The notes beneath the pieces are model-generated. The model was not told where the DNA came from, did not search any database, and saw only the letters and a list, made by a program, of their open reading frames with translations. A stretch of 64,000 bases of DNA, from the NCBI RefSeq assembly GCF_002954665.1, contig NZ_MSCM01000002.1, forward strand, positions 406,767 through 470,766, in the 5' to 3' direction. A program made the position numbers and the translations under genes. This document shows, piece by piece, positions 6,147-48,157 of the stretch. This stretch comes from Polaribacter glomeratus (GTDB lineage: Bacteria; Bacteroidota; Bacteroidia; Flavobacteriales; Flavobacteriaceae). Every line of letters starts with the position of its first letter. Within the stretch, counting starts at the first letter, position 1.

Positions 6147-6147
6147 A

Positions 6148-8867: not shown

Positions 8868-8889
8868 TTAAATACTATTTTTGGTTAAG

Positions 8890-8935
8890 CAAGGGTACAG
8901 CTTCAAATTTCAATACATGTCCTGTACTGTGCTGA
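8890..8935 (-). promoter_or_regulatory. Cluster promoter motif, copy a (before ThuA-DUF1080)
   Basis: Minus strand: TCAGCACAGTACAGGA (8920-8935), then 22 nt, then TACCCTTG (8890-8897), a 5/6 match to the Bacteroidetes TAnnTTTG box. It sits in the 69-bp gap before the ThuA-DUF1080 start codon at 8867. The same 16-mer and the same 22-nt spacing recur five more times in the window. Confidence 0.75.
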
Positions 8936-8936
8936 C

Positions 8937-10157: not shown

Positions 10158-10173
10158 TAGATATTGTGTAATT

Positions 10174-11469: not shown

Positions 11470-11478
11470 AAGTATAAA

Positions 11479-13701: not shown

Positions 13702-13778
13702 CTGTGATTATTATTTTTTAGTTTTTGAGGTATATTTTGTGATTACATCTTTTAAAAAAAAATCAAAAAAGAGCTATA

Positions 13779-14096: not shown

Positions 14097-14190
14097 TTTT
14101 CTAAACTGTTTTAATTTAAACCATTATTTGTTTGTTCCCAGTGATTTCAATGATTCTGGTAGATTTTTTTTTGGTTTAACCTCCTAAATA

Positions 14191-15297: not shown

Positions 15298-15299
15298 TT

Positions 15300-17573: not shown

Positions 17574-17577
17574 AATT

Positions 17578-18942: not shown

Positions 18943-18943
18943 T

Positions 18944-19918: not shown

Positions 19919-19968
19919 ATATTAATGTTTTTTTAGCTTTATTAAATCGACTTCCTTTGGGTTTTTTT

Positions 19969-21324: not shown

Positions 21325-21342
21325 TTTTATTATAATTTTTGA

Positions 21343-24333: not shown

Positions 24334-24414
24334 AAATGTTTTATTAATAATTTTATTTTGATGTTTTTATCAGAACTTATCCCAGTAAAATAAATACTAC
24401 TTTTTTTAAATTAT

Positions 24415-24444
24415 AAAAAAGGAATCCTTTCAGATTCCTTTTTT
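24415..24444 (-). terminator. Bidirectional-looking intrinsic terminator after the small exported protein gene
   Basis: A-run, GGAATC (24421-24426), 6-nt loop, GATTCC (24433-24438), T-run; the A/T runs extend the stem to 12 bp. On the minus strand the stem is followed by T-rich sequence. It lies between the small gene and the GH2 gene, so transcription from the upstream motif promoter would be largely or partly stopped here. Confidence 0.75.
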
Positions 24445-24467
24445 ATAAGCAAATAATTCTATGCTTT

Positions 24468-24806
24468 TTATTCCTTTTTTTTTCTTTGCTCTTTCAAATA
24501 ATTTGACCACTCAGCCATTTTTGATTTACCCAGAATTTTCATCATATCTTGACGTTTTTCTTTATCAAGAACTTTCATTTCTGTTCTTATTTGTGATTGA
24601 TTTCCTGCATTATTTTTTCGTATTTCACCTCTTTTTAGATTGCTTTTTAGTTCTAAATTATAAATAGCAACTTCTTCTTCTGACGTTATAGAAATTACAG
24701 TTTTCATTGTTTCTACTGTTGCTTTTGCCTCCGTTTCAAATCTTTTTTGAGAATACGTTGATACTGAAATAACCATTAAAAATAAAACTACTATTATTTT
24801 TTTCAT
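24468..24806 (-). CDS. Small exported protein of unknown function
   Basis: The 112-residue protein has a clear signal peptide (~1-19, ending STYSQ) and a mature part that is highly charged and predicted helical (KVLDKEKRQDMMKILGKSKMAEW). The layout resembles small periplasmic helical proteins such as Spy/CpxP, but I do not recognise a family. Its promoter carries the cluster's recurrent motif (89 bp upstream of the start) and an intrinsic terminator follows, so it can be made as an independent short mRNA as well as being first in the GH2-GH28 gene run. Confidence 0.75.
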   Translation of the reverse strand: MKKIIVVLFLMVISVSTYSQKRFETEAKATVETMKTVISITSEEEVAIYNLELKSNLKRGEIRKNNAGNQSQIRTEMKVLDKEKRQDMMKILGKSKMAEWSNYLKEQRKKKE

Positions 24807-24864
24807 GACACAGTGATAATTTAAATAATGTACTAAATAAATTTGCTCTTAAATAAAAGCATTG

Positions 24865-24910
24865 CTAATTTAAAGGTAGAAGAATTAAATACTGTCCTGT
24901 ACTATACTGT
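24865..24910 (-). promoter_or_regulatory. Cluster promoter motif, copy b (before small exported protein)
   Basis: Minus strand: ACAGTATAGTACAGGA (24895-24910), then 22 nt, then TAAATTAG (24865-24872), a 5/6 match to TAnnTTTG. The predicted transcript start would lie near 24858, about 50 nt before the ATG at 24806. It lies in the gap after the PL8 stop codon. Confidence 0.75.
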
Positions 24911-24919
24911 GAAAATAAT

Positions 24920-27034: not shown

Positions 27035-27209
27035 CTCTAAATTTATTTTAAGTTTAAATTAATTGAATACTTATTTAAAGTATATAAAATGATTATTGCA
27101 ATAGAAACCATTTGTAATACCTTCATATTATATGTTTTTTTAATTGTACTGATTACTTATTTTCTTTATTATTTAAAAATTTGAAATACTAAAAAACAGA
27201 TTCTCTATG

Positions 27210-30200
27210 TTAATTTTTAATTTCAATTTCTAGCCAATTTTCTTTATTGTTAACGTCTGCTTTTAAAGGCATTTGAATTTTATTAGTTTCATTTTGTAAT
27301 ATAAACAAAGCTTTTCCTTTTTTTTCTTCGGGTTTTGTTGAGATTAATTTCCATGGAATTTTTAGCTCAAAAGTATTACCAACCATTTTATCCCAAGTAT
27401 TAATTTTACCACTTGCATGAATAAAATTGAATTGCAATTTGGTAGCATCCGTCATTTCTTTGGCATTTATAATTGCTGTTTTTGCTGATATTTCGTCATT
27501 AATTTTACCATTTATCGAAACCAAAAATTTAGCATTTAAAACTTCTATTTTAATACTATCGTCGTTCAATCTTATCTCTTGTTTGTAATTTTTTGGTCCT
27601 GGAAATTTCTCACCTCCAAAAAACATTTTCTCCATAAAAACAACTCCAGAAATAAGCAAAGCATCCGCATTCCACATCATATAATTGATGGCGGATAAAT
27701 TTAAATCGAAAATTTGAGGTCCTTCAACAGTGCTTTCTGATGTTAAATAAATAGGTTGCGCATGAATATATGGCGACACTAAACGATCTTCCATATCTTC
27801 TAACCATTCTTCTAAATTTCCATCCACTTTAATAGGAACTGTTTTTTTAATCGCTATTTCTGATAGTTTTGGTGTTTCTAAAAAAGGAATTGCAACACCT
27901 AAATTGGTTAAGATTTGTGCTAAAAATTCTTGTTGACTTGCAATTGGTTCTTTACTAAATTCAATAGTAGAAAGCAGTATATCTGAACCTTCAAAAGGAA
28001 TAGAAATTAAAATAGGATGTGCTTTTTCTACTTTCCAAAAAGTGGAACTAGACGTAAATCCTTGCAATATAATTTCTGCTTTTTTTGGTATTTCTTTAAA
28101 ATATGAATGTGCTAAACTTTTTTCAGTTGACATAAAATTTGCAGATGAAACTCCGTTTAATACTAGATGCTCATTAATTTTTGTAGCTAATAATCCGGTT
28201 TTTTCTTTTCCAATTTCAACACCGTCAAAAGTACTTGCTACAGCTGGCGATATTACCAAAACTTTTCCGCCTTTTGCCTGCCATTCTTTTATTTCATGTA
28301 AGGAAGTTCCATCAAAAGCAAATAGATAATCTCCTTTTTCTGGGTTGGCTCTTTCAAAAACCGATGCTTCTATGTTTACAAAATTAGCAACATCTTTTGC
28401 GTTTTTATCTCCTGCTATTTTAACTTTAGCATTTGCTATTTTTGGCTTTCGATTAGACAAATAATTAATCATATTCACCAACAATCCGTTTGCTTGTGCG
28501 TTTTCTATATTATCAATAATATTTAATTGACAAGCCAATAAAATTCCGTTTCCATAAAAAATTTCAGCAACACTTATTTGCTCTCTTCGAGTTCCGCCAG
28601 ATAAGGTTGTCCAATTTCCTTGTTCATATTTATCATTGCTTGATGGTCTCGAAAACAAGTCGTCTGCTATTCGGCCATCATACAAATCCCAACCTTGTAA
28701 ATTACTAGTATTTAGGTTTTTAAAAATAGGATGTGACTTTTGATAAATAGGTGCTTCAGTAGAAAAGAATAAATCTTTATTCAAACCTTCCCAACCCATT
28801 TTAGCATAATTATGTAAATTAGATTGATTTGCAGAACTAAACTGAAACTTTACAGGAAACCAAGTTGGCGCTTGATCTTGCTTTAAACTTAAAACGGCAC
28901 CACCATTTTTTAAATACAATTCAATGTCTTTTTTTAAATTGGTTAAGACTCTATTATTTGCATGTTCTGGAAAAACCCAAATGACTTGGTCTTTAATTGC
29001 TGGTATTTCTTTGGATGAAAAAGCATTAAAACCAGCACTTTTTAGTTTAGAAACCAATTTTTCATCATCATAAACCTGAATCTTTTTTGTCTGATTTAAA
29101 ATCGATTTTTCAAAAGGTTTGATAAAAAGTGTATCCGAAGAAATTAGTTTTGAGTTTACAGAAACAGAAGCAATTAGGTTTTCATTAAATTCAGGGCTTT
29201 TTAAGTTTAAAGAAATACGTTCTTGAGTTCCTGGCTTTAAAAAAACAGATTTCGAATATTCTTTTTGAAGCCATTTCCAGTTTACCATAAACGTGTTTTC
29301 TGTTTCGCTATCATTGCAAACAACTAACTCTTTTTTTAAAGTATCCCTTTTTTCTACATAACTTTCTCTTGGCCAAAAAAATGTTGTTACAGGTTGTAAA
29401 CCATGTCGCATTTTTTGAAGTATAACTTCTGGTTGTGAGTATATTTTTGATCCGTCATAAAATTCAAAAAAACCACCATTTTCTATTGGTCTATTATCAA
29501 AAGATAATAATTCTGTTCTAAAAGGCATGATTCCTGCAACACCCATATTTCGCATTTCTAGAAACTTTTCTTCATAGATTTTAGCCTCTTCTAAATATCG
29601 TTCTTGTACCGATTTAAATTCTGCAGCATTAGATAAACGTTGTTCAGATCTTCCTCCAACCCAAAATTCACCCATAATTAAAGGGCGTGAATCTTTAGAT
29701 TTCCAATCTTTCATAATTCGGGTATAATGTTCTTGCATGTGCAAAGAAACCATCTCCTGACTGTCATCAAACCAACCTGCGCCCGAATAATTAATGGGTC
29801 TTGTAGTATCAAATTTTCTAATATAATTGGGAAAATATTGAATCCATTGATAGGTGTCAAAATTAAAACGCAACATTTCATTTTCAACATCCCAAATAAC
29901 TACAGAAGGATTATTTCGATCTCTTTTAACCCATTCTTCAAATTCTTTTTCTATGTTTTTTGCAAACCATTCTCCTCCGTTTGAATAAAAAGATTTATTT
30001 ACAGACCAAATTGCAGATTGATTAATAAGTAAAATTCCGGCTTCATCTGCTGCATACATAATCTCATTTGGCGGCATCGTTGCATGAATTCTACAGGCAT
30101 TTACATCGAATACTTTTTTATGCATTAAAAAGATTTCTCGATGATAATCAACATCTTCTCGACTGCTTCTATAGTGAGATTGACCACGTAATTGTGTTGG

Positions 30201-31232
30201 CACACCGTTTAAAACAAATTGTTTTCCTTCTATCCAAAATTCTCTAAAACCAAATCGAGTATCAAGAACATCTGTTTTATTTCCATGTTTTAAAGTGGTC
30301 CTTAACACATATAAATTTGGATGATTCGGACTCCATAATTTTGGATTTTCCCAAGCTACTTTATAAGTGTTTTTTCCATTTTCGTCTTTAGTTAATTGAA
30401 CTTTTGGAAGCTCTAAAACTACTTTTTCTCCATTTGGTCAATGAAATATTTCAAAAGTTATAGTTGCTTTTTTATCGAAATTAGAAGTAACTTCATAGTC
30501 AATTTCTACGTTTTTTTGTCTTGTTGATGTTTTTATAAAAACGGATTTTAGATGAACCTCTTCTAACTCTTCAATAACAATTTTACTTTCAATACCGCCT
30601 TTTAACTTCTTGTTACTTTCTGGATTGTAATTTCCTAATCTTGTTGTACCAACTTGATTGTAAATTTTACCATTATCTAACGACGCACTTTGATCTCTTA
30701 CAAAAATGGCGATACTATTTTCTCCTGATTTTAAAAACTCGTAGATATCAAAATCAAAAGGAGTAAATCCTCCAAAATGATGTCCTACAAGGTTACCATT
30801 GATATAAATTTCAGAAAATAGTTGGATTCTATCAAGTTTTAAAAGGTATCGTTTTTTCTGATTTTTCTCAATTTTATAATTTGAAATATACCAACCAGCA
30901 ACGAAATCTCTTTCTTTAGCACTAAAATTGTGAGGTAATTTAATTTTCTCTGCTTCTAAAACAGGTTTTCCATTTTTAATAGGATAAAAATGCCAACTAT
31001 TATTTAAAACAGCCGTTTTTCTAGCTTTTTTAGAAACCTTATTAAAACCTACAGCGGTTTGAAATTGCCAATCTAAAGAGATGGATTTTACCTCATTCCC
31101 TTTCTCTAGAAACCAATTAGAGTTCACGTCGCCCCTTATTTTTTTAATATATGCGTCACTTGGTTGTGCGTTTAGTATTACGCCATAAAATAATAGCGCA
31201 AAATAAACACCTATTTTTAAACTTAATTTCAT
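27210..31232 (-). pseudogene. GH2 glycosidase split by a single in-frame TGA
   Basis: One continuous frame of 1340 codons encodes a GH2 protein, interrupted only by a TGA at 30438-30440 (codon 265). The first part (264 residues) carries a signal peptide and the jelly-roll domain. The second part continues in frame with PNGEKVVLELP, the end of the Ig-like domain, and the barrel with acid/base VVIWDVENEM (E452) and nucleophile PLIMGEFW (E522). A large C-terminal extension follows, with an amidotransferase-like part and a CBM9-like end (VDGNLEEWLEDMEDR). No other stop or frameshift is seen. It may be a recent nonsense mutation, a sequencing or assembly error, or read-through. Without suppression, the upstream piece lacks the catalytic domain. 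Confidence 0.88.
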
Positions 31233-31311
31233 GTTGAGATATGCTAATGCTTAGAAGAACGATGAAACTATCGTTTAAAAATTATTTCATCTGAATTCGT
31301 TAAATATTTTA

Positions 31312-31342
31312 AACCAAACAGGATATTAAACCCTGTTTGGGT
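31312..31342 (-). terminator. Hairpin after GH78
   Basis: AACCAAACAGG (31312-31322) pairs with CCCTGTTTGGGT (about 31331-31342) around an 8-nt loop, directly downstream of the GH78 stop codon on the minus strand. The following sequence is T/A-rich without a clean T-run, so termination strength is uncertain. Confidence 0.6.
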
Positions 31343-31349
31343 TACTATT

Positions 31350-34088
31350 TTATTTTTTTAAAGGATATTCAAATTGATACGTTCCTGCACCTAAAGTCAA
31401 TTCTAAAGCTTTATCAGTAGCCTTTATTTTTTGCTTCACATCAGCATTTACTGCTTTTGAATTTATCAATAAAGATTCAATTTTTGCATTATTTAAAGTG
31501 ATAGTTCCTGTTGTATTTGCCGGAATTGTAATAGCATACACAAAGTTGTCATTCTCAATTTTCCAGCCAGATTTTACCTCGCCATACAAAGATTGAAATG
31601 TTACTTTTGCATGCGTTAAACCGCCACCAACATGCGGATTGAATAAAATATGTTTGTACCCAGGATTTTTAGGATCTATACTTAAACCTGCCACATAATT
31701 GTACAACCATTCACCAATTGCACCATACGCATAATGGTTAAAACTGTTCATTCCGTCAATAATTGATCCATCTGGTTTTTGAGTGTCCCAGCGTTCCCAA
31801 ATAGTGGTTGCGCCCTGCGTTACAGGATATAACCAACCTGGAAATTCTTTTCTATTTAACAACATAAACGCTAAATCGTCTCTACCAATTTTTGATAATG
31901 TGCTACATAATAACGGAGTTCCTAAAAATCCAGTTGTTAAATGACCAAACTTTTTAACATCCGCAGCAAAATAATTAGCCGATTTCTGAATTAAATTTTC
32001 CGGAACTAAATCAAAAGATAAAGCTAGTGCATATGCCGTTTGTGTATGAGACATTAAGCGTCCATTTGGCGTAATATATTCTTGAATAAATGCTTTTTTT
32101 ACGTTCTCTGCTAACGTTTTATAATTGGCTGCATCTTCCTTTTTTCCAAGAATAGTTGCAATTTTGCTTACTAATGACGTTGAATATTTAAAATATGCCG
32201 TTGCAATTAGATCTTTTTCGGTTACAGAACCAGCATAATCTGGCGCATCAGAATTAAAAGCTAACCAATCTCCCCAGTGCCATCTATTTTGATCCCATAA
32301 AAAATTGTTTCCTGCGTGTTTTCTCATATATTCAATCCATGCCGTCATACTTGCATACTGTTGTTCTAAAACACGCACATCGCCATAGGTTTGATATACA
32401 GACCAAGGAATAATCACCGCAGCATCTGCCCAACCAGTTGTTCCACCCAGTTTATTATTCCACATATCCGGTATAACATTTGGCACTTCGCCATTTGGTT
32501 GCTGATCTAAAGCTAAATCTTTTAACCATTTTGTGTAAAAAGAAGCAACGTCAAAATTAAAACCAGCAGTCATACTAAAAACCTGAGCGTCACCTGTCCA
32601 ACCAACACGTTCGTCTCGTTGTGGGCAATCTGTAGGAATGTCTAAAAAATTATCTCTTTGACCCCATTGAATATTACTTTGTAATTGATTAATTAATGGA
32701 TTTGACGTTTCAAAAGTTCCTGTTTCTTGCATATCAGAATGAATTACCATTCCTGTAATATCGTCTGCAATTGGAGTTGCACCTTCAACTTTTATAAAAC
32801 GAAAACCATGAAATGTAAAATGTGGTTGAAATGTTTCTACACCATTTCCTGACAACACAAAACGATCTGTTGCTTCTGCAGCTCTTAAATTCTTTGTAAA
32901 AAAGTTACCTTCTTTGTCTAAAACTTCTGCAAATTTTAACGTAATGGTATCTCCTTTTTTCCCTTTTACTTTAATTTTTGCCCAACCCACAATATTCTGA
33001 CCTAAATCGAAAACCAATTCTCCTGTTGGTGTTTTTATCGTTTTAATTGGTTTTATTTCTTGTGTAATTCTTACTGGCAATCCGTTTGAAGCAACTAAAA
33101 TTTCTTTAGAGTGATTTAAAATACTTGTTGCTTTCCAAGTTGATGCATTAAAATTATTAGTAGCCCAACCTTTCATTTCTAGATTTGCATCATAGGTTTC
33201 GCCATTATAAATATCTGATTTTAAAATTGGTCCGTAACTAGATTTCCAAGAATCATTAGTAACAATAATTTCATTTGTTCCGTCTGTATATTCTATTTTT
33301 AACTGTACAAAAAGAGCTAAGGTATCTCCATAATAACTACGCAATCCATCCCAACCTAAATAACCTCTGTACCAACCATCGCCAACAATAGCGCCAATTG
33401 TATTTGCTTTTTGCAGCATTGAAGTAACATCAAAAGTTTGATATTGAATACGCTTTTTGTAGCTTGTAAAACCTGGCGTAAATTGTTGATCTCCAACTTT
33501 TTCTCCATTGATAAATAGTTGATATAATCCTAATGAAGTTGCATATGCTCTTGCTGATTTGATTGTTTTTGAAGCTGAAAATTCTTTTCTAAAATACTGA
33601 CTTGGTAATGAAGTTGCTGATTTTTTTTCATCTTTCATGGTAATCCAAGATGCTTCCCAATCAGTAGTTTTTAAGATACCCATTTCCCAAAAAGCAACAG
33701 CACTCCATTTAGAAGCCTTGTTTTTGTTGTCCCAAATTTTTACTTGCCAATACAAACGTTGCATCGATTTTAGCGCTTCTCCTTCATATTCAATATTTAC
33801 AGCGGTATCGCTCTTTACTTTTCCTGAAGTCCAAACTAAACTGCTTTTTTTGCTTAATTCTGATGCCGAATTAGCAACACGAATTTCATAAGCAGTTTGC
33901 GCACTATTTTCATCCGAAGAAAGCATTTGCCAACTTAATCTTGGTTTTTGAACATCAATTCCAATAGGGTTTATATGATATTCTACAACTAATTTATGAG
34001 CTTGTAACTTTTGTGCTAATAATGAGGATGAACCGCAAACGAACATCAAAAGTAAATTGAAAACTATCGTTTTATGAATTAATTTCAT
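31350..34088 (-). CDS. GH78 alpha-L-rhamnosidase
   Basis: I place the start at 34088 (MKLIHKTIVFNLLLMF), which gives a proper signal peptide; the open frame extends 31 codons further up but that extension would overlap the promoter motif. The 912-residue product has GH78 layout: N-terminal beta-sandwich domains (~25-330), LDIPTDCPQRDERVGWTGDAQVF at the entry to the (alpha/alpha)6 barrel with the catalytic acid Glu, and TTIWERWD near the barrel end. It hydrolyses terminal alpha-L-rhamnose. It has its own promoter motif 93 bp upstream of the start, and a hairpin follows the gene. Confidence 0.95.
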   Translation of the reverse strand: MKLIHKTIVFNLLLMFVCGSSSLLAQKLQAHKLVVEYHINPIGIDVQKPRLSWQMLSSDENSAQTAYEIRVANSASELSKKSSLVWTSGKVKSDTAVNIEYEGEALKSMQRLYWQVKIWDNKNKASKWSAVAFWEMGILKTTDWEASWITMKDEKKSATSLPSQYFRKEFSASKTIKSARAYATSLGLYQLFINGEKVGDQQFTPGFTSYKKRIQYQTFDVTSMLQKANTIGAIVGDGWYRGYLGWDGLRSYYGDTLALFVQLKIEYTDGTNEIIVTNDSWKSSYGPILKSDIYNGETYDANLEMKGWATNNFNASTWKATSILNHSKEILVASNGLPVRITQEIKPIKTIKTPTGELVFDLGQNIVGWAKIKVKGKKGDTITLKFAEVLDKEGNFFTKNLRAAEATDRFVLSGNGVETFQPHFTFHGFRFIKVEGATPIADDITGMVIHSDMQETGTFETSNPLINQLQSNIQWGQRDNFLDIPTDCPQRDERVGWTGDAQVFSMTAGFNFDVASFYTKWLKDLALDQQPNGEVPNVIPDMWNNKLGGTTGWADAAVIIPWSVYQTYGDVRVLEQQYASMTAWIEYMRKHAGNNFLWDQNRWHWGDWLAFNSDAPDYAGSVTEKDLIATAYFKYSTSLVSKIATILGKKEDAANYKTLAENVKKAFIQEYITPNGRLMSHTQTAYALALSFDLVPENLIQKSANYFAADVKKFGHLTTGFLGTPLLCSTLSKIGRDDLAFMLLNRKEFPGWLYPVTQGATTIWERWDTQKPDGSIIDGMNSFNHYAYGAIGEWLYNYVAGLSIDPKNPGYKHILFNPHVGGGLTHAKVTFQSLYGEVKSGWKIENDNFVYAITIPANTTGTITLNNAKIESLLINSKAVNADVKQKIKATDKALELTLGAGTYQFEYPLKK

Positions 34089-34150
34089 GTGTTTTTCTAG
34101 TGTAAAATAAATTATTAAACTCTTTTGACTTTTAAAAAATAAACTAAAAA

Positions 34151-34196
34151 CGAAACTATTTATATATTTTTTATTTAGCATCCTGTTCTGTGCTGT
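34151..34196 (-). promoter_or_regulatory. Cluster promoter motif, copy c (before GH78)
   Basis: Minus strand: ACAGCACAGAACAGGA (34181-34196), then 22 nt, then TAGTTTCG (34151-34158), a 5/6 match to TAnnTTTG. It is the most diverged copy, but the 22-nt spacing is kept. Confidence 0.7.
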
Positions 34197-34354
34197 AAGT
34201 ATGCTTCATTGTTATAAAAATAATTGTTGCACAATAAAGCACTAAAGACAGATTCGCTTTTAGAAGCAAGAACCAAGACTTGATTCTAATTAGCTGAAAA
34301 AAGCCGTAACTTAAAATAAAATTATTTTTAATCAGGAACTAATGAATGAAAATA

Positions 34355-37300
34355 CTATTTTTTGCTTTCAATAAAAATTAACCTCTCATTTTTTATTTGA
34401 ACCGGTCCTAATAATCCTGCGGATATTAAACTACTATTTTCATAGTAAAAGTTAGCAGTTGTAAAAGTAGTTCGTTTACTTTTAGGCATTGGTTGATTGT
34501 TTACATACCAATCTGGCATACTTGCACCCTCTTTATCGAAACCATCTGTAGCAGGAAATCTCTCATCACCAATTAAGCGGTTTGTCCATTGATTGGTTAC
34601 TTTTATTTCTAATGTATTTTCGCCTTTTTGTAATTGTTTTGTAATATCTAATTTAAAAGGAGACATCCATAAAACCCCTAAATTTTTCCCATTCAAAATT
34701 ACCTCAGCGGCAATACTTACTTTGCCTAAATCTAATATATAACGTGCTGTTTTTTCTGATTTCTTATCATCAAAACTAAAACTTTTACGATAAACGGCAG
34801 TTCCAGAATAATAGTTGATATTTTCATTTTTATGATCTTTCCAATCTGTTAATTCTTTAAAAGGAATCTTTGCTTCAAAGTCATTTTCTTTTAAAAATTC
34901 TACATTCCAATTTTTACTGATGTCAATCGGCTTTTCTATATTTTTAATTTCGATACGTCTCTTTTCTCCTGAATCTAAATTTGCTATAAATATTCCGTTT
35001 TCTTTTACCATTAATTGCAATTGATTCTTGCTATTAAGAATATATTCTGTTTGTATATTATTAGGTTGATTTTCTAAACTTACTGTATGAATTCCTCTTG
35101 ATGACTCTCTAAAAACTACAAAAACAGCTTCCTCACCTTCTAAATGTATCCAAGCTTTTGTTTGACCTTTTTTGTGAATAAACTGACCTAATTTTTTAGT
35201 GCTTCCGTCAATAGGATTCCATAATTCAGGAATTTTACCATCAATATTAAAATCACATTCAAATACAGCCGCTTTTTTATCACGATTGTAAAAGAAATAA
35301 ATATCGGTATTTTCATCTTTACGGTGTGTGTACAACAAATCGTCTCTATCCACAAAATCTAAATCGGTAGCAATATTATTTTCTTTAAATATTTTTTTCC
35401 AATTAAAATCGGCATAGGTTTTAGGTTGATTTTTAATTTCTAAAACCAACTTTTTAAACGTTTCTTTCAGTTTTTCTGATACCAAATAACCAGCGGGTTC
35501 TATAGTCTTTACACCAACTACAGGAATTCCTGCCAATGCTATTTTATGAATTTTCTCTAGCGATTTTAAGGATAATTTTTCACAATTTTTTAAAACCAAA
35601 ACTTTATAACTTGTACCACTTGGCAAAACTATTTGACCTTTTTTAATGGTAATTCCGTTAATTAAAACATCTGCATTTACATTGTCAAAATTAGTTTCAT
35701 TAGGAATGTTTGGTTCAAAATCGTCTCTGTAAAAAGGCGCATTTGGAGAACCTTCACCAATAAAAATCAATACATCAGAAACTGGCAAACCTTGTCGTAA
35801 CATATAAGAACCTCGTTGCATATATTTAAACCAAGCTTCGCCAGCATTGTACCACCAAGTGTTGGTTCTATCAAAATGAAAACCCCATTTATCCAACGTC
35901 ATTCCTGGTTTTACTTGTGTGTTTGCCTGATGCGCAAAACGATGTAACATAAACTGATTAATACCTTGCACCCAAGCAGAATCTCCTTCAACTTTTACCA
36001 TTCCAGGATGTCCTTTCCAATTGGTTTTTGGAATAGAAGTAAAGGATTCTGCAGAAACAATATTTTTGCCATAAATACGACTTCCAGAAATTGCTGCACC
36101 CATCATTTTTACTTTACGATCTGGCCAAAATTCTCCCATATTAATATCGGCTTTTTCCGCAACATCCAATTCGTTTATCATACCATCGCCGTAGGGTTCA
36201 AAATAAGTTTTTAATCCGTCTTTATGACACAACTCACTAAAATACCCATAATAATTTTCGGTAACTAAATCGCAAGTAAGTTTTCTAAAATCAGACAAAA
36301 CAGCATCCGAAGCTTTGGCACTTTCTACAAATCGACCTGTAAACAAGGGTAGAAATTGCACCAAATCATACCCATCCTTTTGTTTAAAAACAGTATCTAA
36401 TTCATCAGTCCAGTTTTGTAAGCCTCTTTCAAAACTATCAATCTCAATATATTGCAAGGAATTATTCCCTTTTAAATTTTGAACTGCTTTGGTAATAAAA
36501 TTATCATAATGCGTTTTGATTGCTTTTTTACTGAATTTATCACACTCTAACCCGCGACCAGAAACTGAGGACGGTGCATTCTCTTGACCATTTGTAGTAT
36601 ATCCAAAACGAATAATGGTATAATCACCCTTTGGCAAAGTGGTTTTTAAATTCCCTTTTGCATCCATTTTAGCCGATAAATTGATGATTGTTTTTGGATC
36701 AATAATCATCTCTTTTTTTGGATTTCCAATATTAGAAAGCTCATTATCGTCAATTCGAAGAAGACCAGTTCGTGCTAATAGATTCCCGACAGTAAAAGTA
36801 GCCATCAAATTAATTTCTCTTATAACCGAAACCGAATGGAGATTAATTCTAAAATAACGAGCAGTAATAGGTTCAAAATGATCAAAAAAATCAACTCTTT
36901 GATGAACTGTTTTGTGTTTAAAAAGGTCTTTTACTTTTGTATAATTTATGCCATCGTTAGAAGTTAACAACTCTGCACTTGCCCATCTATCTTTGACTTC
37001 CATAAAAAAAGACTGGATGGTATACGATTTGCCATAATCAAACTGTACCCAAGAATTTTTACCTTCAATTGTAGCTTCGGTTTTTGAATTTTTATCAACA
37101 ACCAAACCGCTATTAAAATTAGGATCTGATGAAGTAATTTTAGGTTTGTTATTAAAATCTACTTTTTCCGATGGCAAAGTTGGATATGCTAAAACCGCAA
37201 CATCTTTATAGAAATCTTTGCGTGTAAATGGCTGTTTTAGTTTTACGTTTACTTGTCCGCCTTTCAAAATTGTATCAGAATAGACCAACATTTTCATACT

Positions 37301-37702
37301 GTTTTCTGGCGTAATCCAAGGGCCACCGCTAGAAGACCATCCATCGCAATTATGAAACCCAAAAGTAAGCCCCAAACGATCACATTCAGTTGCCGCATGT
37401 TTTAACATTTCGTGATGTTCGGGCGAATTGTATGCAATCTTTCCAGCAGGAGTATGTTCAGAAACATTAAAAAGCAACACACCACCAAGTCCAACTTTCT
37501 CAATCGCTTCTAAATCTTTGGTCAAACCCTCTTTGGACATATTGCCACTTAAAGCGTGCATCCACGTTTTTGCTTTTGAGTCTGCAGGTGGATTTTTAAA
37601 ATTTGCTTCTAATTCTGATTGTTGAAATTGATTTTGAACTTGTCTATGACACCCAAAAAAAGTTAGCACTAGTATAAATTGAAATAGAAGCCTTTTTATC
37701 AT
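34355..37702 (-). CDS. GH106 alpha-L-rhamnosidase, lipoprotein
   Basis: The 1115-residue protein has an SPII signal (LTFFGCHRQ, Cys18). The GH106 N-terminal signature follows: ANFKNPPADSKAKTWMHAL, GLTKDLEAIEKVGLGGVLLFNV and FGFHNCDGWSSSGGPWITPE. A discoidin/F5-8C-like insert (~205-300, SYTIQSFFMEVKDRWASAEL) is visible, and the C-terminal galactose-binding-like domain (~1000-1100) has LGVLWMSPFKLDITKQL. Acidic candidates for catalysis lie in EIDSFERG and GEFWPD, but I cannot assign them firmly. It removes alpha-L-rhamnose, as known for GH106. Its start is 2 bp after the stop of the acetolactate decarboxylase gene. Confidence 0.92.
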   Translation of the reverse strand: MIKRLLFQFILVLTFFGCHRQVQNQFQQSELEANFKNPPADSKAKTWMHALSGNMSKEGLTKDLEAIEKVGLGGVLLFNVSEHTPAGKIAYNSPEHHEMLKHAATECDRLGLTFGFHNCDGWSSSGGPWITPENSMKMLVYSDTILKGGQVNVKLKQPFTRKDFYKDVAVLAYPTLPSEKVDFNNKPKITSSDPNFNSGLVVDKNSKTEATIEGKNSWVQFDYGKSYTIQSFFMEVKDRWASAELLTSNDGINYTKVKDLFKHKTVHQRVDFFDHFEPITARYFRINLHSVSVIREINLMATFTVGNLLARTGLLRIDDNELSNIGNPKKEMIIDPKTIINLSAKMDAKGNLKTTLPKGDYTIIRFGYTTNGQENAPSSVSGRGLECDKFSKKAIKTHYDNFITKAVQNLKGNNSLQYIEIDSFERGLQNWTDELDTVFKQKDGYDLVQFLPLFTGRFVESAKASDAVLSDFRKLTCDLVTENYYGYFSELCHKDGLKTYFEPYGDGMINELDVAEKADINMGEFWPDRKVKMMGAAISGSRIYGKNIVSAESFTSIPKTNWKGHPGMVKVEGDSAWVQGINQFMLHRFAHQANTQVKPGMTLDKWGFHFDRTNTWWYNAGEAWFKYMQRGSYMLRQGLPVSDVLIFIGEGSPNAPFYRDDFEPNIPNETNFDNVNADVLINGITIKKGQIVLPSGTSYKVLVLKNCEKLSLKSLEKIHKIALAGIPVVGVKTIEPAGYLVSEKLKETFKKLVLEIKNQPKTYADFNWKKIFKENNIATDLDFVDRDDLLYTHRKDENTDIYFFYNRDKKAAVFECDFNIDGKIPELWNPIDGSTKKLGQFIHKKGQTKAWIHLEGEEAVFVVFRESSRGIHTVSLENQPNNIQTEYILNSKNQLQLMVKENGIFIANLDSGEKRRIEIKNIEKPIDISKNWNVEFLKENDFEAKIPFKELTDWKDHKNENINYYSGTAVYRKSFSFDDKKSEKTARYILDLGKVSIAAEVILNGKNLGVLWMSPFKLDITKQLQKGENTLEIKVTNQWTNRLIGDERFPATDGFDKEGASMPDWYVNNQPMPKSKRTTFTTANFYYENSSLISAGLLGPVQIKNERLIFIESKK

Positions 37703-37704
37703 AA

Positions 37705-38505
37705 TTATTTTTTATTGTATTGAAAACTTTTCTCTAAATTAACAGAATCATATGCTGGAGTTTCTGGTAAATCAAATTGATATTTTGCAATTCTTTTAAA
37801 ACCTCCAGATAAATTTGAAGCATCAGTAAATTCCATTACATGACCTGCAGATTTTTTATCAGCAGAAACAAAATGAAAATGATAGCCAGCCACATTTATT
37901 TTTCCGATGAAATCTGGACAGTAAAAACCAACCAACGTTCCAGTGATATTTTCCCTATCAAAAACAGGTCTATTTGGGATTAAAACATCCAAACCTTCTG
38001 TATACGGTTTTTCTTGTTTTGGAACTCCACCTAATTTTAATTTGTTAAAAGTACCATGAATTTGAAACGCATAGAAATAATTTCTAGAGCCTATTTGTTC
38101 GTTAATTTGTGCTCTTAAATGATTATAATTTTCAACTTTATTGATATCAAAAGTTTTGTCTTCTGTGTAAAATGCAGCATTAGCATAGGCAATTTTGGTA
38201 GTGTCATTTACTACAATTACTTGTCCGTTTCCTAGTGCTTCGTACAAAATTCAGTCTAACATAATTAGCTCGCCATCTAAACCATTATAAGAACCTAAAC
38301 CAATAGTTCCTTTTTGTTTTAATTCGCCGGCAGTTAACGTACCATCGTAAATTTTATTTACAAAAGCTTCCCAAATAGAATAATGATAAAACACATCGGT
38401 TTCATTTTTTTGGATACTATTCTCTTGAACTGCTATTTTTGTTTGATCATTTTTACAACTAATTATTACAGCGAAAATGATGAATAGATACAATAGTTTT
38501 TTCAT
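37705..38505 (-). pseudogene. Exported acetolactate decarboxylase split by a single in-frame TGA
   Basis: The frame of 266 codons begins with an SPII lipoprotein signal (FAVIISCKN, Cys17) and matches acetolactate decarboxylase. The N-terminal part has YSIWEAFVNKIYDGTLTAGE and LGSYNGLDGELIMLD; the C-terminal part has IHGTFNKLKLGGVP and the zinc site GYHFHFVSADKKSAGHV. A TGA at 38251-38253 (codon 85) replaces the position where the family usually has Gly (LDG), so GGA to TGA is the simplest change. No other defect is visible. Family activity is conversion of 2-acetolactate to acetoin in the cytoplasm; a lipoprotein form inside a glycan cluster suggests a different role or substrate. Confidence 0.87.
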
Positions 38506-38619
38506 AAGTTGATTGTTTTTAAATTCATTTTTATATAACAGAAATCACATCAAATATCAGCCAAAAAAGACCTCATGATTAGCAATTTTCCCATATTTGA
38601 AACTGACCAAAAAATCGTA

Positions 38620-40986
38620 TTATTTTAATCTAAATATTTTCTCTAATCGAATATCATCCGAAGCACCTCCAACCATCAAATTGAATTCGCCAGGTTCTAC
38701 AACCTTTTTTAAATCTATTCCTGTAAATGATAAATCTTTTTCTGGATTTAGCGCAAACGTCAATGTTTTTTCCTCACCTGCTTTTAACCATACTTTCTCA
38801 AATCGCACTAACAATTGTGCAGGTCGAGTTACAGAAGCCACTTTATCTCTAAAATATATTTGTGCAATTTCAGCACCATCAATTTTTCCTGTATTTTTTA
38901 CTTTTACAGAAAAAGTAACAGCTTCATTCATATCAAAAACTTCTTTTTCAATATTTAAATCTGAATACTCAAAAGACGTATAGGATAAACCATGACCAAA
39001 TGCATACACTGGCGTTGGTGGTGTTTCCCAATATCCTTTATAAAAAGAATTTGCTTTCATAGAATAATAAAAGGGAATCTGTCCTGCAGAGTGCAAGAAG
39101 CTTATTGTTAATTTTCCTGAGGGATTTACTGCGCCAAAAATCACTTTAGACAAAGCGTCACCATTTGTTTGTCCCAAATAAAAGGTATTTACAATGGCAC
39201 TTGCTTTTTCCGCAATTTCAGGGATAGCATAAGGTCTGCCGCCCATTAGCACAACGATTACGGGTTTTCCAGTTGCAATTGCATCCATTACTAGTTTTTT
39301 CTGATTTCCTAACAAATCAATTGTCGACCTATCTCCTGCAACTCCTGGTCTGTAAAAAGCCTCCCTACTTGTCTTTTCATTTCCACCCACACAAACAATG
39401 GCAACATCTGATTTTTTAACTAAATCGATTGCCTTAATCATCGATTCCTTTTCTTCAGATTCTGTGTATTCTATAAGTCGGTCTTGTCCATTTTTATTTT
39501 CAAATTTGGCTATTTTGCATCCTTCTTCATAATTGACTTTAACCGATTTTCCTACGTAATTCTTTATTCCCTTTAAAATAGAAACAACATCATCATTTTT
39601 CATGGAATATGTTCCCATCTCATCCGAATTGGCATTTGGCCCAATAACAGCAATATTTTTAATCTCCTTTACATTCAAAGGTAGAATATTATTGGTGTTT
39701 TTTAATAAAACGACTGATTCTGTTGCTATTTTCTCAGCAAGTGCTACATGTTTTTTATTTCCTATAAAATCACTCACTCCTTTTGTTTCTGTATACGGAT
39801 TTTCAAATAACCCCAACATAAACTTTAAACGTAATATCCTTTTTACACTTGCATCAAGCTCCTTTACAAGTGCTGGATTTTCTTCTACAACTTCTTGTAG
39901 ATATTTAAAAGCAGAAGCAGAAGGCAAATCTATATCCATCCCAGCGATAAGACCTAGTTTTGCTGCTTCTTGAGTTGTTGCCGCTATATGGTGGAATTCT
40001 TCAAGACGTTTTATATCATTATAGTCAGAAACCACAATACCTTTAAAACCCCAAGTATTTCTTAACAAATCGGTTAAAAGCCATTTATTTCCATGTGCAG
40101 GCACACCGTCAACTTCACAATGTGACGCCATCATTCCTAATGCGTTGGTTTGTTCAACAACCGCTTTAAACGGAGGCAATATCTCATCAAAAAGAACTTT
40201 GGTATCAATAGGTGTTGCAGCAAAATTTCTACCACCTTCTACTTGACCATAACCTGCAAAGTGTTTAGGCGACGCAATTACATGCGTTAATCCTGGGTTT
40301 CCTGTGGTTCCTCCCTGTAATCCAGAAATAATAGAAATAGCCATTTGAGTTGTTAAATACGTATCTTCTCCATAGGTTTCTTCGATTCTACCCCAACGCG
40401 GATCTCTACCGATATCTAGCACTGGTGTATGTGCTTCGTGTCCTCCTCTAGTTCTTGCTTCACGTCCAATTACATCAAACACTTCGTTAACAAGTTTTGT
40501 ATTCCAGCTAGAAGCCATGGCAAGCGGTGTAGGAAAAACAGTAGAATTACGACCTGCGTGTCCATGTAAACATTCTGTCCCAATAATTGCAGGAATCCCA
40601 AGTCGGGTTTTTTCTTTTAAGTATTTCTGAAGACTGTTTACCATCTCAACACTTTTTTCTGGCATGCGCTGATCAAAAGTGTTTTCAATAAAACCGATAC
40701 CGTTTTTTAGCTGTTCTTCAATTGATTTTTCAATAAGCTCTACTCCTTCTTCTACAGCTGCGGATTTTCGTATAGATGCCGAATTCAATTGCATTGCCTT
40801 TTCTTCCAAAGTCATTTTAGAAAGCAAGTCATTAACTCTATCGTTAATATTAGCATTCGGATTTTTGTAAATCGCTATACCTTTCTTTGATGGTTGATCA
40901 CCTAAACTGATGTACTTTTTGCCTGAAATAAATAATACAGAACTTAAAGCCAAGCCCATAAAAATATACAAATACTTGTTTTTCAT
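38620..40986 (-). CDS. GH3 beta-glycosidase (larger paralogue)
   Basis: The 788-residue protein has an N-terminal hydrophobic signal (YIFMGLALSSVLFISG). The GH3 domains follow: barrel with [17 protein letters not shown] and nucleophile motif GIVVSDYNDIKRLEEF, the alpha/beta sandwich (KSDVAIVCVGGNEKTSREAFYRPGV) and a C-terminal fibronectin-III domain (EIAQIYFRDKVASVTRPAQLL). It is closely related to the GH3 at 15300-17573 in motif order. Beta-xylosidase or beta-glucosidase are the likely options; GH39 upstream in the same direction suggests beta-xylosidic substrates. Confidence 0.93.
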   Translation of the reverse strand: MKNKYLYIFMGLALSSVLFISGKKYISLGDQPSKKGIAIYKNPNANINDRVNDLLSKMTLEEKAMQLNSASIRKSAAVEEGVELIEKSIEEQLKNGIGFIENTFDQRMPEKSVEMVNSLQKYLKEKTRLGIPAIIGTECLHGHAGRNSTVFPTPLAMASSWNTKLVNEVFDVIGREARTRGGHEAHTPVLDIGRDPRWGRIEETYGEDTYLTTQMAISIISGLQGGTTGNPGLTHVIASPKHFAGYGQVEGGRNFAATPIDTKVLFDEILPPFKAVVEQTNALGMMASHCEVDGVPAHGNKWLLTDLLRNTWGFKGIVVSDYNDIKRLEEFHHIAATTQEAAKLGLIAGMDIDLPSASAFKYLQEVVEENPALVKELDASVKRILRLKFMLGLFENPYTETKGVSDFIGNKKHVALAEKIATESVVLLKNTNNILPLNVKEIKNIAVIGPNANSDEMGTYSMKNDDVVSILKGIKNYVGKSVKVNYEEGCKIAKFENKNGQDRLIEYTESEEKESMIKAIDLVKKSDVAIVCVGGNEKTSREAFYRPGVAGDRSTIDLLGNQKKLVMDAIATGKPVIVVLMGGRPYAIPEIAEKASAIVNTFYLGQTNGDALSKVIFGAVNPSGKLTISFLHSAGQIPFYYSMKANSFYKGYWETPPTPVYAFGHGLSYTSFEYSDLNIEKEVFDMNEAVTFSVKVKNTGKIDGAEIAQIYFRDKVASVTRPAQLLVRFEKVWLKAGEEKTLTFALNPEKDLSFTGIDLKKVVEPGEFNLMVGGASDDIRLEKIFRLK

Positions 40987-41198
40987 GTTTATTAAAAATA
41001 TTTATGTATTGATTTAAATTGATGCAATATTCAACTCATAATTGCAACAAACTTTTATTAAACGCTTTACTACTTTGTCATCTTTTTGTAGTAAATTTTA
41101 CTCTATGAACAACCACTTAATAATCTGGTAAATCCATCGTTATTGCTTGACTGTTTTATGTTACTTTAAGTAGATAACAAAAAGATTCATAATAAAGA

Positions 41199-42770
41199 CT
41201 ACATTTTAGTCATGGTCATAAAAAAAACATCATTTTCTTTAATTTTAAGCGTCTTAGCAAATTTTCCGTCTTTGATGGTTACAGTTAATTCTTCAACAGG
41301 GTTGTTTTCTGAAGCTTCCTTTAACTGTTTTTCTTGAGCTTTCGTTATTTGCGATGGACTTCCCATTTGGATGTACTTTGTATAAGCATCATTGACTAAA
41401 TAACCAGTTTGGTAAACCTGAACGTTGTATGTACCAGGTTGCAAATTGTTGACCTTGAGCGTAACGTCTCCAATTGAATTTGCTGGTACTTCTTTCCCAA
41501 AATATTCGTTATTGTAAGAACCTTTGAAATCAATATTGGTTAAATTCCAAAATAAAGCTTGAACATTCCCTTTGTCATCTTTACAAACTATGGCACTTTG
41601 ATCATCGGTCGTTAATTCTTTATTACCTAAGCCTGCCAAAAATTCATACGCGAAGTAGGAAGGCTTTTTAATATCCTGAAGGTTAATTAAACCAAAACCA
41701 CCATGGAAAGGCGTTTTAGGCGGGCCTGCTTCTTCAAAAATATCTGTAAATGTCCAGTAACTCATACTAGTAGCTTCATTTTCCGATTTTTTAAGAACGT
41801 TAAGAATATAAGCTGCATTAAAATATGTATCGTGAATTAAATCTGCGGGCGAATATGAGGTGTTCCATTCCGTAAAATGAAGTGGAAGATCTGGGCGTGG
41901 AGATTTAAGTATGTCCTGTTTCGAGTTAGCCACTCTACTGGGTAAAACGTCCAAATCTGGACGTAAAATAAGCTTTTTAGTACCAAATTCATCTAAGCCA
42001 TCGCCTTTTACGCCGTAAGCATGGGTAGAAACAAAATCAACTGACCAATTATTTGCAACGCAAAGTTCTATGAAATCTGAAATCCAAGCTGTACCTGAAG
42101 TTGCAGGTCCGCCAACTTTATAATCTGTAGAAACTAACTTGACAGCTTTTGCCGTTTCACTATACAATTTCATGTAAGCGTCCAACTTATTTGGAAACTC
42201 AATATTATTTGAGATAAAGAAAGCTGGATGATTTGGCTCGTTCCAAAGTTCAAATAGCCATGTTTTTACTTCTTCTTTGCCATAGCGTTCTTCTAAATGT
42301 TTTACAAATGCCGTAATAAGTCCGTTCCATTTAGCATAATCTTTCGGAGGCGTAACATTTCCTTTCCACCAAAAAACAGTCTTATCGTCACTGGCTAAGG
42401 CCGATGGCATAAATGATAACTCAACAATTGGCTTAATGTTTTGCGTTAATAAAAAATCATAAAGCCTATCTACATATTGCCAATTATAAATTGGGGTGCC
42501 TGCTTGATCTTCAAAGTAAACGCCCATATCGTCAGATAAAATTCCGTGGAAACGAATATACTTAAAGCCGATTTCTTGTTGCACTTCTTTCAGTTGAGCT
42601 TGCCAGTCGGCTCTTAAACCTTCGTTTGCCCTTCCTGCACCAATGCAGTATAGGTAACTTGGCGATAGTTCGCCTTTTACTTTATTTACATCAACAGAAA
42701 TGGTGCGTTGTTGTGCGTTTGTAGGTAAATAAAAGAGAGATAATAATAAAAGGATACTTTTAATATTCAT
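41199..42770 (-). CDS. GH39 beta-xylosidase-type glycosidase
   Basis: The 523-residue exported enzyme (signal ~1-19, ending TNAQ) shows clan GH-A/GH39 motifs: KYIRFHGILSDDMGVY, acid/base Glu in WLFELWNEPNHPAFF (~170-184) and nucleophile Glu in LPLHFTEWNTSYSP. GH39 members are beta-xylosidases and alpha-L-iduronidases; some act on xylose in algal ulvan oligosaccharides. With xylose genes in the window, beta-xylosidase is the favoured role. It is last in the tight run GH2-DUF1080-GH39 (17-bp gap to DUF1080). Confidence 0.92.
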   Translation of the reverse strand: MNIKSILLLLSLFYLPTNAQQRTISVDVNKVKGELSPSYLYCIGAGRANEGLRADWQAQLKEVQQEIGFKYIRFHGILSDDMGVYFEDQAGTPIYNWQYVDRLYDFLLTQNIKPIVELSFMPSALASDDKTVFWWKGNVTPPKDYAKWNGLITAFVKHLEERYGKEEVKTWLFELWNEPNHPAFFISNNIEFPNKLDAYMKLYSETAKAVKLVSTDYKVGGPATSGTAWISDFIELCVANNWSVDFVSTHAYGVKGDGLDEFGTKKLILRPDLDVLPSRVANSKQDILKSPRPDLPLHFTEWNTSYSPADLIHDTYFNAAYILNVLKKSENEATSMSYWTFTDIFEEAGPPKTPFHGGFGLINLQDIKKPSYFAYEFLAGLGNKELTTDDQSAIVCKDDKGNVQALFWNLTNIDFKGSYNNEYFGKEVPANSIGDVTLKVNNLQPGTYNVQVYQTGYLVNDAYTKYIQMGSPSQITKAQEKQLKEASENNPVEELTVTIKDGKFAKTLKIKENDVFFMTMTKM

Positions 42771-42787
42771 AATTTTTTATGTAATTA

Positions 42788-43591
42788 TTATTTTAAAAAT
42801 GTTTCTGCTGGTACAAATTCCTTCAATTCTTTAATCATAATATTTCGATAGTAAATTTCAGCAGTTTCAGATTGAAAACCTATTTTACCTCCATCCATTA
42901 CAAAGTTCGTTGCCATATTTACAATCTCTCCATTTAGTTTGTGAATTGAATATTCACTTCCCATAACGATGACTTCACATTGATTCCATTTGTCATTTAA
43001 ACCGTTAAAATTTCGAGTCGGACTTGCCAAATGCTCCATACCTCTTGGTGGTTGTGGTTTTCCTCCATCTTCAATAAAAGCAAATTCGTTGTTTTCATTA
43101 GAAGTCCAATTATACGGCGCTAATCCCCAATAATCTCCTGTATGATTTTTATCGATTTCCGGGTTATAACGCACTTGATATTCTATTCCTTTTGGCCAAA
43201 TAGCATCATCGATAACATGATAATACAACCCAGCATCATATTGAAACATTGGGTAATTATTTGCTTTATTCTTTCCCCATTTGTATTCAAATTTCAGAAT
43301 ATACTTGCTGTAGGCTTTGTCTGTATAAAACAAACCATGCGTTGGGTTTTTACCATTTGCAACCTCTGATCCTTCTGGCACTTCTTTAAAAACATGGATC
43401 ATACCATTTTCAATCTGAAACACTTTATTTGCTAAATCAGCATCATTATTCCTGATTTTTAAATACCAACCCTCCCAATTTTCTCCATTAAATAACGAAA
43501 CAAAACCGGTCATGTCAGCTTTAGTTTGTTGCATTTTACAAGCGCTAATGGTAATCAATATAATCGCTACAATACTTAATTTTAATTTCAT
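42788..43591 (-). CDS. DUF1080 (3-keto-glycoside hydrolase-like) lipoprotein
   Basis: The 267-residue single-domain protein has an SPII signal (ITISACKMQ, Cys18). The concanavalin-like DUF1080 fold starts SLFNGENWEGWYLK and includes KFEYKWG, DAGLYYHV, GIEYQVRYN and a closing GKIGFQSETAEIYYRNIMIKEL. DUF1080 proteins take part in breakdown of 3-keto-glycosides. This one stands alone, without the ThuA domain fused to the homologue at 7299-8867. It sits between GH2 (10-bp gap) and GH39 (17-bp gap). Confidence 0.9.
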   Translation of the reverse strand: MKLKLSIVAIILITISACKMQQTKADMTGFVSLFNGENWEGWYLKIRNNDADLANKVFQIENGMIHVFKEVPEGSEVANGKNPTHGLFYTDKAYSKYILKFEYKWGKNKANNYPMFQYDAGLYYHVIDDAIWPKGIEYQVRYNPEIDKNHTGDYWGLAPYNWTSNENNEFAFIEDGGKPQPPRGMEHLASPTRNFNGLNDKWNQCEVIVMGSEYSIHKLNGEIVNMATNFVMDGGKIGFQSETAEIYYRNIMIKELKEFVPAETFLK

Positions 43592-43601
43592 CTTCTTCTT
43601 T

Positions 43602-46718
<3,117 letters not shown>

Positions 46719-46765
46719 TTATTGCTAAACATAAGTTTTTGTAAATCAACCAAAAAATAGTAGAT

Positions 46766-48157
46766 CTACTTTTTAAATTCCCACCAATTAAAGTTGAAAA
46801 CATTTGCTCCTTGACCTGTAAATTTAAAGTACACATCGTGTGTGCCTTTTATTTGCTCCACAGCACAAGTTACAGTTTTCCATATCGTTAAATTTCCAGT
46901 AGGTGTAATTTCACAAGTACCAATTAATCTACCTTTTTCACTGCCAATTCTTATTTCAATTCCGCCAAAATTTTGTGCTGCTATTCTTGCTTCAAAAGAT
47001 GTTGCGCCGTTTTCGAAATCTACTCCAGCAACTTTTATCCAATCGCCACTTTCAATTTCTGTAACCATTCTTCCTTGAAAAATATCATTACAAGCAGCAG
47101 TTTCAATTCCCGGTAACAAATATGATTGTGTTGCCATTGTTTCTGCTTCATTTCTTTGAAACGGATTTACATTTTTAACCTGTTTTGGTCCTTCGGATGT
47201 TGGAATTACTTCTTTGATTGTACCATCGGTATTAAAAAATAATTCATCCACAGAAACAGAACGTTGACGCAATGCAATGTTTTCCTCCACTTTTCTATCC
47301 GTAGCAATTTTTCTTGTATGATATCCTAAATACCATTTGTCTTTAAATGAAAAAACACTTGCATGAGAATTGTTATAATTATCTGCTGGTTGTTTTAAAA
47401 TAATTCCTTTATATTCCCAACCAGACATAGGGTTATCACTCATCATATACTCTATATTCATACCTGTACCAATATTAGTAAAATATGAAAAATAGTATTT
47501 TGTAATTCCCTTTACAGTGCGTTTACTAATATAACCACCCTCGTAAAAACCCGGCGCATCAATTAAAACAGCTTCCCCAACTGTGCTAACTAGATCGTCT
47601 CCTAATTTAATAATTCTTCCATTTTTTTTACGTTTTCCATCCATCTGAATTTTTGTTGGTCCGCCTCCAAAAACGCAATAGGCTTGACCGTCATTATCAA
47701 TAAAAACAGTGGGGTCAAAAAGCCATTCTACATCAGAATTTGGAGTTTCTTTAGTTATTAATGGTTTGCCGCCAACACCTTTAAAAGGACCTGTTGGACT
47801 ATCGCTGACAGAAACATTTACACTTCTATTTCCATCACCTGTGTACAAATAAAATTTTCCGTTTTTTTCTACTACGGATGGAGCCCAAGCTTGTGTAACC
47901 CAAGGCATATCATCTGGCGCTTTAAACACTTCGCCATGATCTGTGTAGTTTTTCATATCCTCTGTAGAAATACAGGTAATATCATTCATCCAATATCTTT
48001 TTTGTTCATCGATATCATGTGAAGTCCATAGGTATAAACGACCATTGTATTCTAAACCAGTTGGATCTGCAGTATATCTTTGGGAAATAACTGGGTTTTG
48101 TGCGTAATTTTGTAATGTAATTATCACTAATAACGTTAAGGTAAAAACTCTTTTCAT
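46766..48157 (-). CDS. GH43 glycosidase with CBM6
   Basis: The 463-residue exported enzyme (signal ~1-19) has a GH43 five-blade propeller: RYTADPTGLEYNGRLYLWTSHD with the base Asp, TQAWAPSVVEKNGKFYLYTGDG, EWLFDPTVFIDNDGQAYCVFGG and FYEGGYISKR with the likely acid Glu. A C-terminal CBM6 (~335-463: NPFQRNEAETMATQ to FNFNWWEF) follows. This pairing is typical for beta-xylosidases and arabinofuranosidases that act on xylan-like chains. The gene ends in TAG. It heads the run GH43-GH2-DUF1080-GH39, without the recurrent promoter motif directly upstream. Confidence 0.93.
   Translation of the reverse strand: MKRVFTLTLLVIITLQNYAQNPVISQRYTADPTGLEYNGRLYLWTSHDIDEQKRYWMNDITCISTEDMKNYTDHGEVFKAPDDMPWVTQAWAPSVVEKNGKFYLYTGDGNRSVNVSVSDSPTGPFKGVGGKPLITKETPNSDVEWLFDPTVFIDNDGQAYCVFGGGPTKIQMDGKRKKNGRIIKLGDDLVSTVGEAVLIDAPGFYEGGYISKRTVKGITKYYFSYFTNIGTGMNIEYMMSDNPMSGWEYKGIILKQPADNYNNSHASVFSFKDKWYLGYHTRKIATDRKVEENIALRQRSVSVDELFFNTDGTIKEVIPTSEGPKQVKNVNPFQRNEAETMATQSYLLPGIETAACNDIFQGRMVTEIESGDWIKVAGVDFENGATSFEARIAAQNFGGIEIRIGSEKGRLIGTCEITPTGNLTIWKTVTCAVEQIKGTHDVYFKFTGQGANVFNFNWWEFKK

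Follow-up and report, generated by a model that had tools for sequence, protein, structure and literature searches.

Two in-frame TGA codons in one polysaccharide utilisation locus of Polaribacter glomeratus probably reflect independent nonsense mutations

Results

Two genes of one locus are each interrupted by a single TGA

An in-frame TGA within an otherwise continuous gene of the alpha-acetolactate decarboxylase (ALDC) family raises the question of whether the codon is translated, truncates the protein or is an error of the assembly. The window analysed here is a stretch of 64,000 nucleotides (G000:C2:406767-470766) from a 4.06-Mb genome held in 4 contigs. A preliminary description of this DNA had reported the frame correctly but had left its strand unstated: the gene is read on the minus strand, from 38505 to 37705, and the TGA at codon 85 is the sole internal stop among its 266 codons. 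The plus-strand reading of the same interval was rejected, as it contains 17 stops. With X placed at the stop, residues 40–258 of the translation matched positions 2–218 of the 219 in the PF03306 profile (E = 1.1e-62), and the protein also matched seven distinct PDB sequences whose annotation is alpha-acetolactate decarboxylase or similar to it.

Codon 85 is Gly in all five named relatives, which are the closest ones: Lutibacter agarilyticus (74% identical along its whole length), an uncultured Flavobacteriaceae, a Segetibacter MAG, Allomuricauda and Flagellimonas. A wider alignment took in 12 relatives, leaving out 5 loci without the filter motif and several weak matches; Gly occurs in 11 of the 12 and Ser in one (L205), and the PDB chain 4bt2 carries Thr at the aligned position. 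The earlier statement that the family normally has Gly here thus holds for the closest relatives; across the aligned sequences Gly is usual, not universal. The Gly of the relatives also supports the proposed single step from GGA to TGA, a G-to-T change, as the probable origin of the lesion; the codon at this site in L. agarilyticus is GGT. The base after the stop is A.

The other gene with a single TGA, 7.8 kb away and also read on the minus strand, was likewise confirmed. It encodes a GH2-type glycoside hydrolase and is interrupted at codon 265 of 1340 (Table 1), upstream of its TIM-barrel domain (residues 331–525), with C as the base after the stop. Only two homologues were found, namely one in the L. 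agarilyticus locus (L021; 64% identity, partial) and one in genome G276 (L027; 47–48%), and both have Trp at this position, which points to a TGG-to-TGA, G-to-A change. The two TGAs were therefore not of the same type, as had been suggested, since they differ in ancestral residue (Gly vs Trp) and in substitution, and with lesions of different types a shared cause is not required. G-to-T sequencing damage, one of the common causes put forward, fails for the GH2 stop and also for a third TGA found elsewhere in the genome, where congeners have AGA. Phase-variation-like mutation found no support either, as neither window site shows a long run or tandem repeat on inspection by eye. The shared orientation is real but carries little weight, because every ORF of at least 160 aa between 1650 and 54005 lies on the minus strand.

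Table 1. Coordinates of the two interrupted genes, their neighbours and the related ALDC-family genes (window positions unless a locus is named)
Feature	Position	Strand	Remarks
Polysaccharide utilisation locus	1650..48157	minus	contains both lesions
ALDC-family (PF03306) gene	37705..38505	minus	266 codons, one interruption; lipoprotein-like N-terminus (by eye); subfamily member
In-frame TGA, codon 85 of ALDC-family gene	38251..38253 (read 38253-38251)	minus	reverse complement of TCA
GH106 alpha-L-rhamnosidase gene	34355..37702	minus	intact; directly downstream of ALDC gene, which it also adjoins in Lutibacter agarilyticus
GH78 rhamnosidase gene	31350..34181	minus	intact; equivalent place in Lutibacter agarilyticus
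GH2-type glycoside hydrolase gene	27210..31232	minus	1340 codons, one interruption
In-frame TGA, codon 265 of GH2-type gene	30438..30440 (read 30440-30438)	minus	Trp in both relatives found
PL8-family lyase gene	24920..27034	minus	intact; adjoins broken GH2 gene
ALDC subfamily member, L021	10001-10801		
ALDC subfamily member, L022	10001-10798		
ALDC subfamily member, L023	8513-9310		
ALDC subfamily member, L024	10001-10789		
ALDC subfamily member, L025	10001-10783		

The locus is rare, and the codons after both stops are conserved

Both interrupted genes belong to a polysaccharide utilisation locus that also encodes an MFS transporter, an FGGY kinase, a GntR-type regulator, glycoside hydrolases of families GH106 (two), GH88, GH3 (two), GH43 (two), GH28, GH78, GH39 and GH2 (three in all), a PL8 lyase, DUF1080 domains and Gfo/Idh oxidoreductases. 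The gene order in L. agarilyticus is ALDC-GH106-GH78-PL8-GH2; here the broken GH2 gene precedes PL8. At E ≤ 1e-50 the GH2 gene was found in 1 of 146 genomes of the genus, its own, and in 2 of 299 genomes of the family, its own included, and the ALDC-family gene at E ≤ 1e-30 in 5 of 345 genomes of the class, again counting its own. With the threshold relaxed to E ≤ 0.001, 18 of the 146 genus genomes (own included) gave an ALDC match, and the matches apart from the gene itself were about 23–34% identical or of partial coverage only. One congener (G029, L005 about 1440–1750) holds a truncated ALDC remnant, 60% identical to residues 35–96 alone and adjacent to a gene that looks sulfatase-like by eye, so the gene has been lost in a congener too.

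Compared with the L. agarilyticus locus (L021), both genes show less nonsynonymous difference downstream of the TGA than upstream (ALDC, 0.127 vs 0.222; GH2, 0.129 vs 0.295), while synonymous difference is similar on either side (after vs before: 0.62 vs 0.616 and 0.481 vs 0.577, respectively). The sequences after the stops therefore bear no trace of decay: either the two lesions arose recently, or they are not real, or they are read through.

A further GH2 gene, about 10 kb past the end of the window (L068 about 10352; G000:C2 about 481,118), appears to carry a frameshift at a short run of T, and its downstream piece starts inside the GH2 domain. With it, the sugar-degradation genes here may bear three lesions.

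The decoding machinery gives no support to UGA suppression or reassignment

The proposal of a UGA-suppressor tRNA was followed up across the genome. A search with RF00005, in which 150 of 401 first-look candidates were scored, found 35 tRNAs above the cut-off, and ARAGORN, which assigned anticodons at all 35 places and detected zero tRNAs within the 64-kb window, placed a UCA anticodon, and thus one that reads UGA, at none of them. The sole tRNA-Trp found carries CCA. The tRNA-Sec model (RF01852) gave no match over its cut-off, and its three sub-threshold matches are two Leu tRNAs and one Ser tRNA. RF2 is intact (prfB, 475.8 bits against a cut-off of 370, with no internal stop), and TGA terminates 30 of 756 long ORFs. 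A suppressor tRNA, tRNA-Sec and loss of RF2 were each rejected on this tRNA set, these sub-threshold matches and the intact prfB, and nothing supports UGA suppression or reassignment in this genome.

Interrupted genes elsewhere carry several kinds of lesion

A sample of 1,664,000 bases (41% of the genome; the window and 80 further stretches), of which 1,638,149 are not N, was scanned with a codon-usage score to find frames that remain coding past a stop. The scan, which is blind to lesions close to the end of a gene or in genes that score poorly, gave 36 rows for 864 kb and 112 rows for the full 1.664 Mb; 28 places were checked by translation, and for the remaining rows the tabulated output was the sole basis of judgement, which may have let some lesions escape. 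The 28 places comprised 9 lesion-like cases, 2 ambiguous ones (L101:3921 and L101:4158) and 17 gene boundaries, antisense frames and similar cases.

The suggested search for further single in-frame TGAs yielded one, with other lesions alongside. The third TGA lies in a family-2 glycosyltransferase (GT2) gene at C1:1618164 (L093 18164) and is followed by A. Three congeners have this gene intact at 86–90% identity, with AGA at the site in the two whose codons were read, and against G009, G006 and G004 its dN/dS is 0.052–0.069, a range for which synonymous sites are close to saturation. At C1:317424 (L080 17424), an HsdM-like N-6 methylase gene contains an in-frame TAG just before a DPTCGSGS motif; a 64% identical paralogue elsewhere in this genome carries Ser (TCG) at that site. 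The paralogues of these two genes (GT2, C1:1572518; HsdM-like, C2:188128) were rejected as stop-containing, both frames being intact. Two probable TAA lesions, judged without a homologue check, lie at L116:5816 (minus) and L101:14870, and L101:14285 has two stops and looks decayed. The broken genes of L116 and L101 are small, secreted or lipoprotein-like, with premature stops. At least four genes in the sample look frameshifted: the L068 GH2 gene described above; an HbpS-like gene (L062 5048-5254, minus), two frames of which match consecutive parts of PF03928; an RE_endonuc-domain (PF19778) gene at L136 about 8209 (minus), by eye and not at a run; and a lipoprotein-like gene at L102 about 8177, by eye and at a TA repeat. 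When the pieces of broken genes were searched against Pfam, no family was found for L102 or for either piece of L116.

Random single-base nonsense mutation at this codon usage would yield a TGA share of 0.26. The observed share is 3 of 4 among homologue-verified genes (P = 0.058) and 3 of 6 with the probable cases added (P = 0.191); two of these TGAs are the window pair, and without the window the share is 1 of 2 or 1 of 4. TGA is thus not significantly enriched among single-stop genes of the 41% sample, and the added TAA cases put slightly further weight against a TGA-specific cause. Two lesions per 64 kb have a Poisson P of 0.003 at the verified outside rate (2 in 1.6 Mb), with 0.19 such windows expected genome-wide, or 0.0115 and 0.73 windows once the two probable TAA cases are included, for a window that was ascertained and not randomly drawn. 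Relaxed selection on one locus would likewise cluster lesions. In two control congeners (G013 and G106, 400 kb each) the scan gave 39 and 36 rows, four of which were opened out of 75. Those in L153, L162 and L160 are gene boundaries or ends. At the fourth, L149:12659 (minus) of G013, a TAG probably stands in frame inside the gene for a small protein whose C-terminal part is rich in glycine, so single stops would occur in a control as well.

Discussion

Independent nonsense mutations in an accessory locus

Our preferred explanation, to which we assign a probability of about 0.7, is that two genes of one accessory polysaccharide utilisation locus were each inactivated, recently and independently, by a nonsense mutation of a single base. 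The ribosome would stop after 84 residues of the ALDC-family protein, before the conserved H209, H211 and H222, which we take to be the metal ligands, and after 264 residues of the GH2 protein, before the TIM barrel, presumably the catalytic part; both truncated products would then be null. Being rare in the genus, and probably dispensable, the locus could accumulate such lesions. The stops in the sequence, the intact remainder of both frames, the residues of relatives, the difference in substitution and the broken genes elsewhere are observed; that the stops are real in the organism and end translation, and that selection on the locus is relaxed, we infer. In support, the residues of relatives differ at the three TGAs (Gly, Trp and Arg, encoded by AGA), and TAG, probable TAA and frameshift lesions occur elsewhere. 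Against it, conservation after the stops is equally expected under sequencing error or readthrough, two hits fall within one 64-kb window, the ALDC relatives are not all Gly, and the search turned up no close relative that carries an intact copy of the locus.

As in known bacterial pseudogenes with a single nonsense mutation, there is one in-frame stop with the frame intact on either side, the aligned codon of relatives is a sense codon, intact homologues exist elsewhere and several unrelated lesions occur in one genome; the present case differs in that two such genes share one catabolic locus and are known from one assembly.

Assembly error, readthrough and a shared event

Consensus base-call errors, with both genes intact in the organism, are the main rival of the nonsense-mutation reading, and we regard them as unlikely. 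The frames are otherwise perfect and the downstream codons conserved, as errors would leave them; the assembly is in 4 contigs, 25,851 of the 1,664,000 sampled bases are N, for whatever reason, and the frameshifts in L068 and L102 fall at a short T run and a TA repeat, respectively. On the other side, the three TGAs imply three different substitutions (G-to-T, G-to-A and A-to-T), neither window site has a long run by eye, the L136 frameshift is not at a run, and the completeness is 99.99%.

Readthrough of UGA, whether by wobble of tRNA-Trp, by a suppressor or by regulated recoding, would allow both proteins to be made at some level, and appears very improbable. The predominance of TGA among the homologue-verified single-nonsense genes, its rarity as a normal stop and the conserved codons after the stops are consistent with it, and UGA followed by C, as in the GH2 gene, is a leaky stop context at a site where relatives have Trp. 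The ALDC and GT2 stops, however, are followed by A; no single amino acid would restore Gly, Trp and Arg at the three sites, none of the relatives read has TGA at the ALDC, GH2 or GT2 site, and a UGA-specific mechanism would not account for the TAG, probable TAA and frameshift lesions. The absence of a UCA anticodon among the 35 tRNAs and the intact RF2 also argue against it. Established UGA-recoding systems, namely reassignment to Trp (table 4) or Gly (table 25), selenocysteine insertion and suppressor tRNAs, likewise show in-frame TGA in conserved frames, but here UGA ends ordinary genes, tRNA-Trp with CCA is the only one found, RF2 is present, no tRNA-Sec exceeds the cut-off and the residues in relatives differ. 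What had looked like a recoding or suppressor signal is thereby removed, as relatives show different origins for the two TGAs.

A variant of this idea, to which we give slightly less credence still, is that UGA is leaky enough for single-UGA genes to yield some full-length protein, such lesions being retained in catabolic and surface genes as a state of low expression; the three conserved TGA-interrupted genes (ALDC, GH2 and GT2) would then be the visible part. If true, this leakiness would matter for the annotation of Bacteroidota genomes. A shared mutational event or a mutagen in culture as the source of both stops appears highly improbable: the two hits are only 7.8 kb apart, but their substitutions differ, a similar lesion lies far off in C1 (GT2), and other kinds of lesion occur in the genome.

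Users of this genome should call the ALDC-family and GH2 functions of the polysaccharide locus broken or unverified, not present.

An ALDC-fold subfamily beside polysaccharide-degradation genes

The interrupted gene also draws attention to a small, lipoprotein-like subfamily with the ALDC fold in Bacteroidota, which lies beside genes of polysaccharide-degradation type in all five named relatives (Table 1). Among the titles and abstract openings listed in literature searches on ALDC together with polysaccharide utilization, with rhamnogalacturonan or with glycoside hydrolases of Bacteroidetes, none deals with ALDC in polysaccharide utilisation loci. Like alpha-acetolactate decarboxylase (PDB 4bt2), the protein covers nearly the full PF03306 profile and keeps H209, H211 and H222, which we take as its metal site, as well as the Glu of the LDGE motif (E79). 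It differs from 4bt2 in its lipoprotein-like character (by eye), its setting in polysaccharide loci and its C-terminus, and Gly159 stands at the position of Arg145, which we take to be the active-site Arg of 4bt2. In the alignment of the six subfamily members (A1), all six keep the three His and all six have Gly at the Arg145 position. Among the seven other rows of the wider alignment, two have Arg there (L004 and L205), indicating that this Arg is not universal in the wider family either. The subfamily may have a different substrate, and its activity is possibly a new one, perhaps on a branched sugar acid. The neighbouring genes vary among its members: GH3, GH43, GH106, GH78, PL8 and GH2 in L021, GH88 in L022, Gfo/Idh only in L023, and GH43, GH3, GH88 and Gfo/Idh in both L024 and L025.
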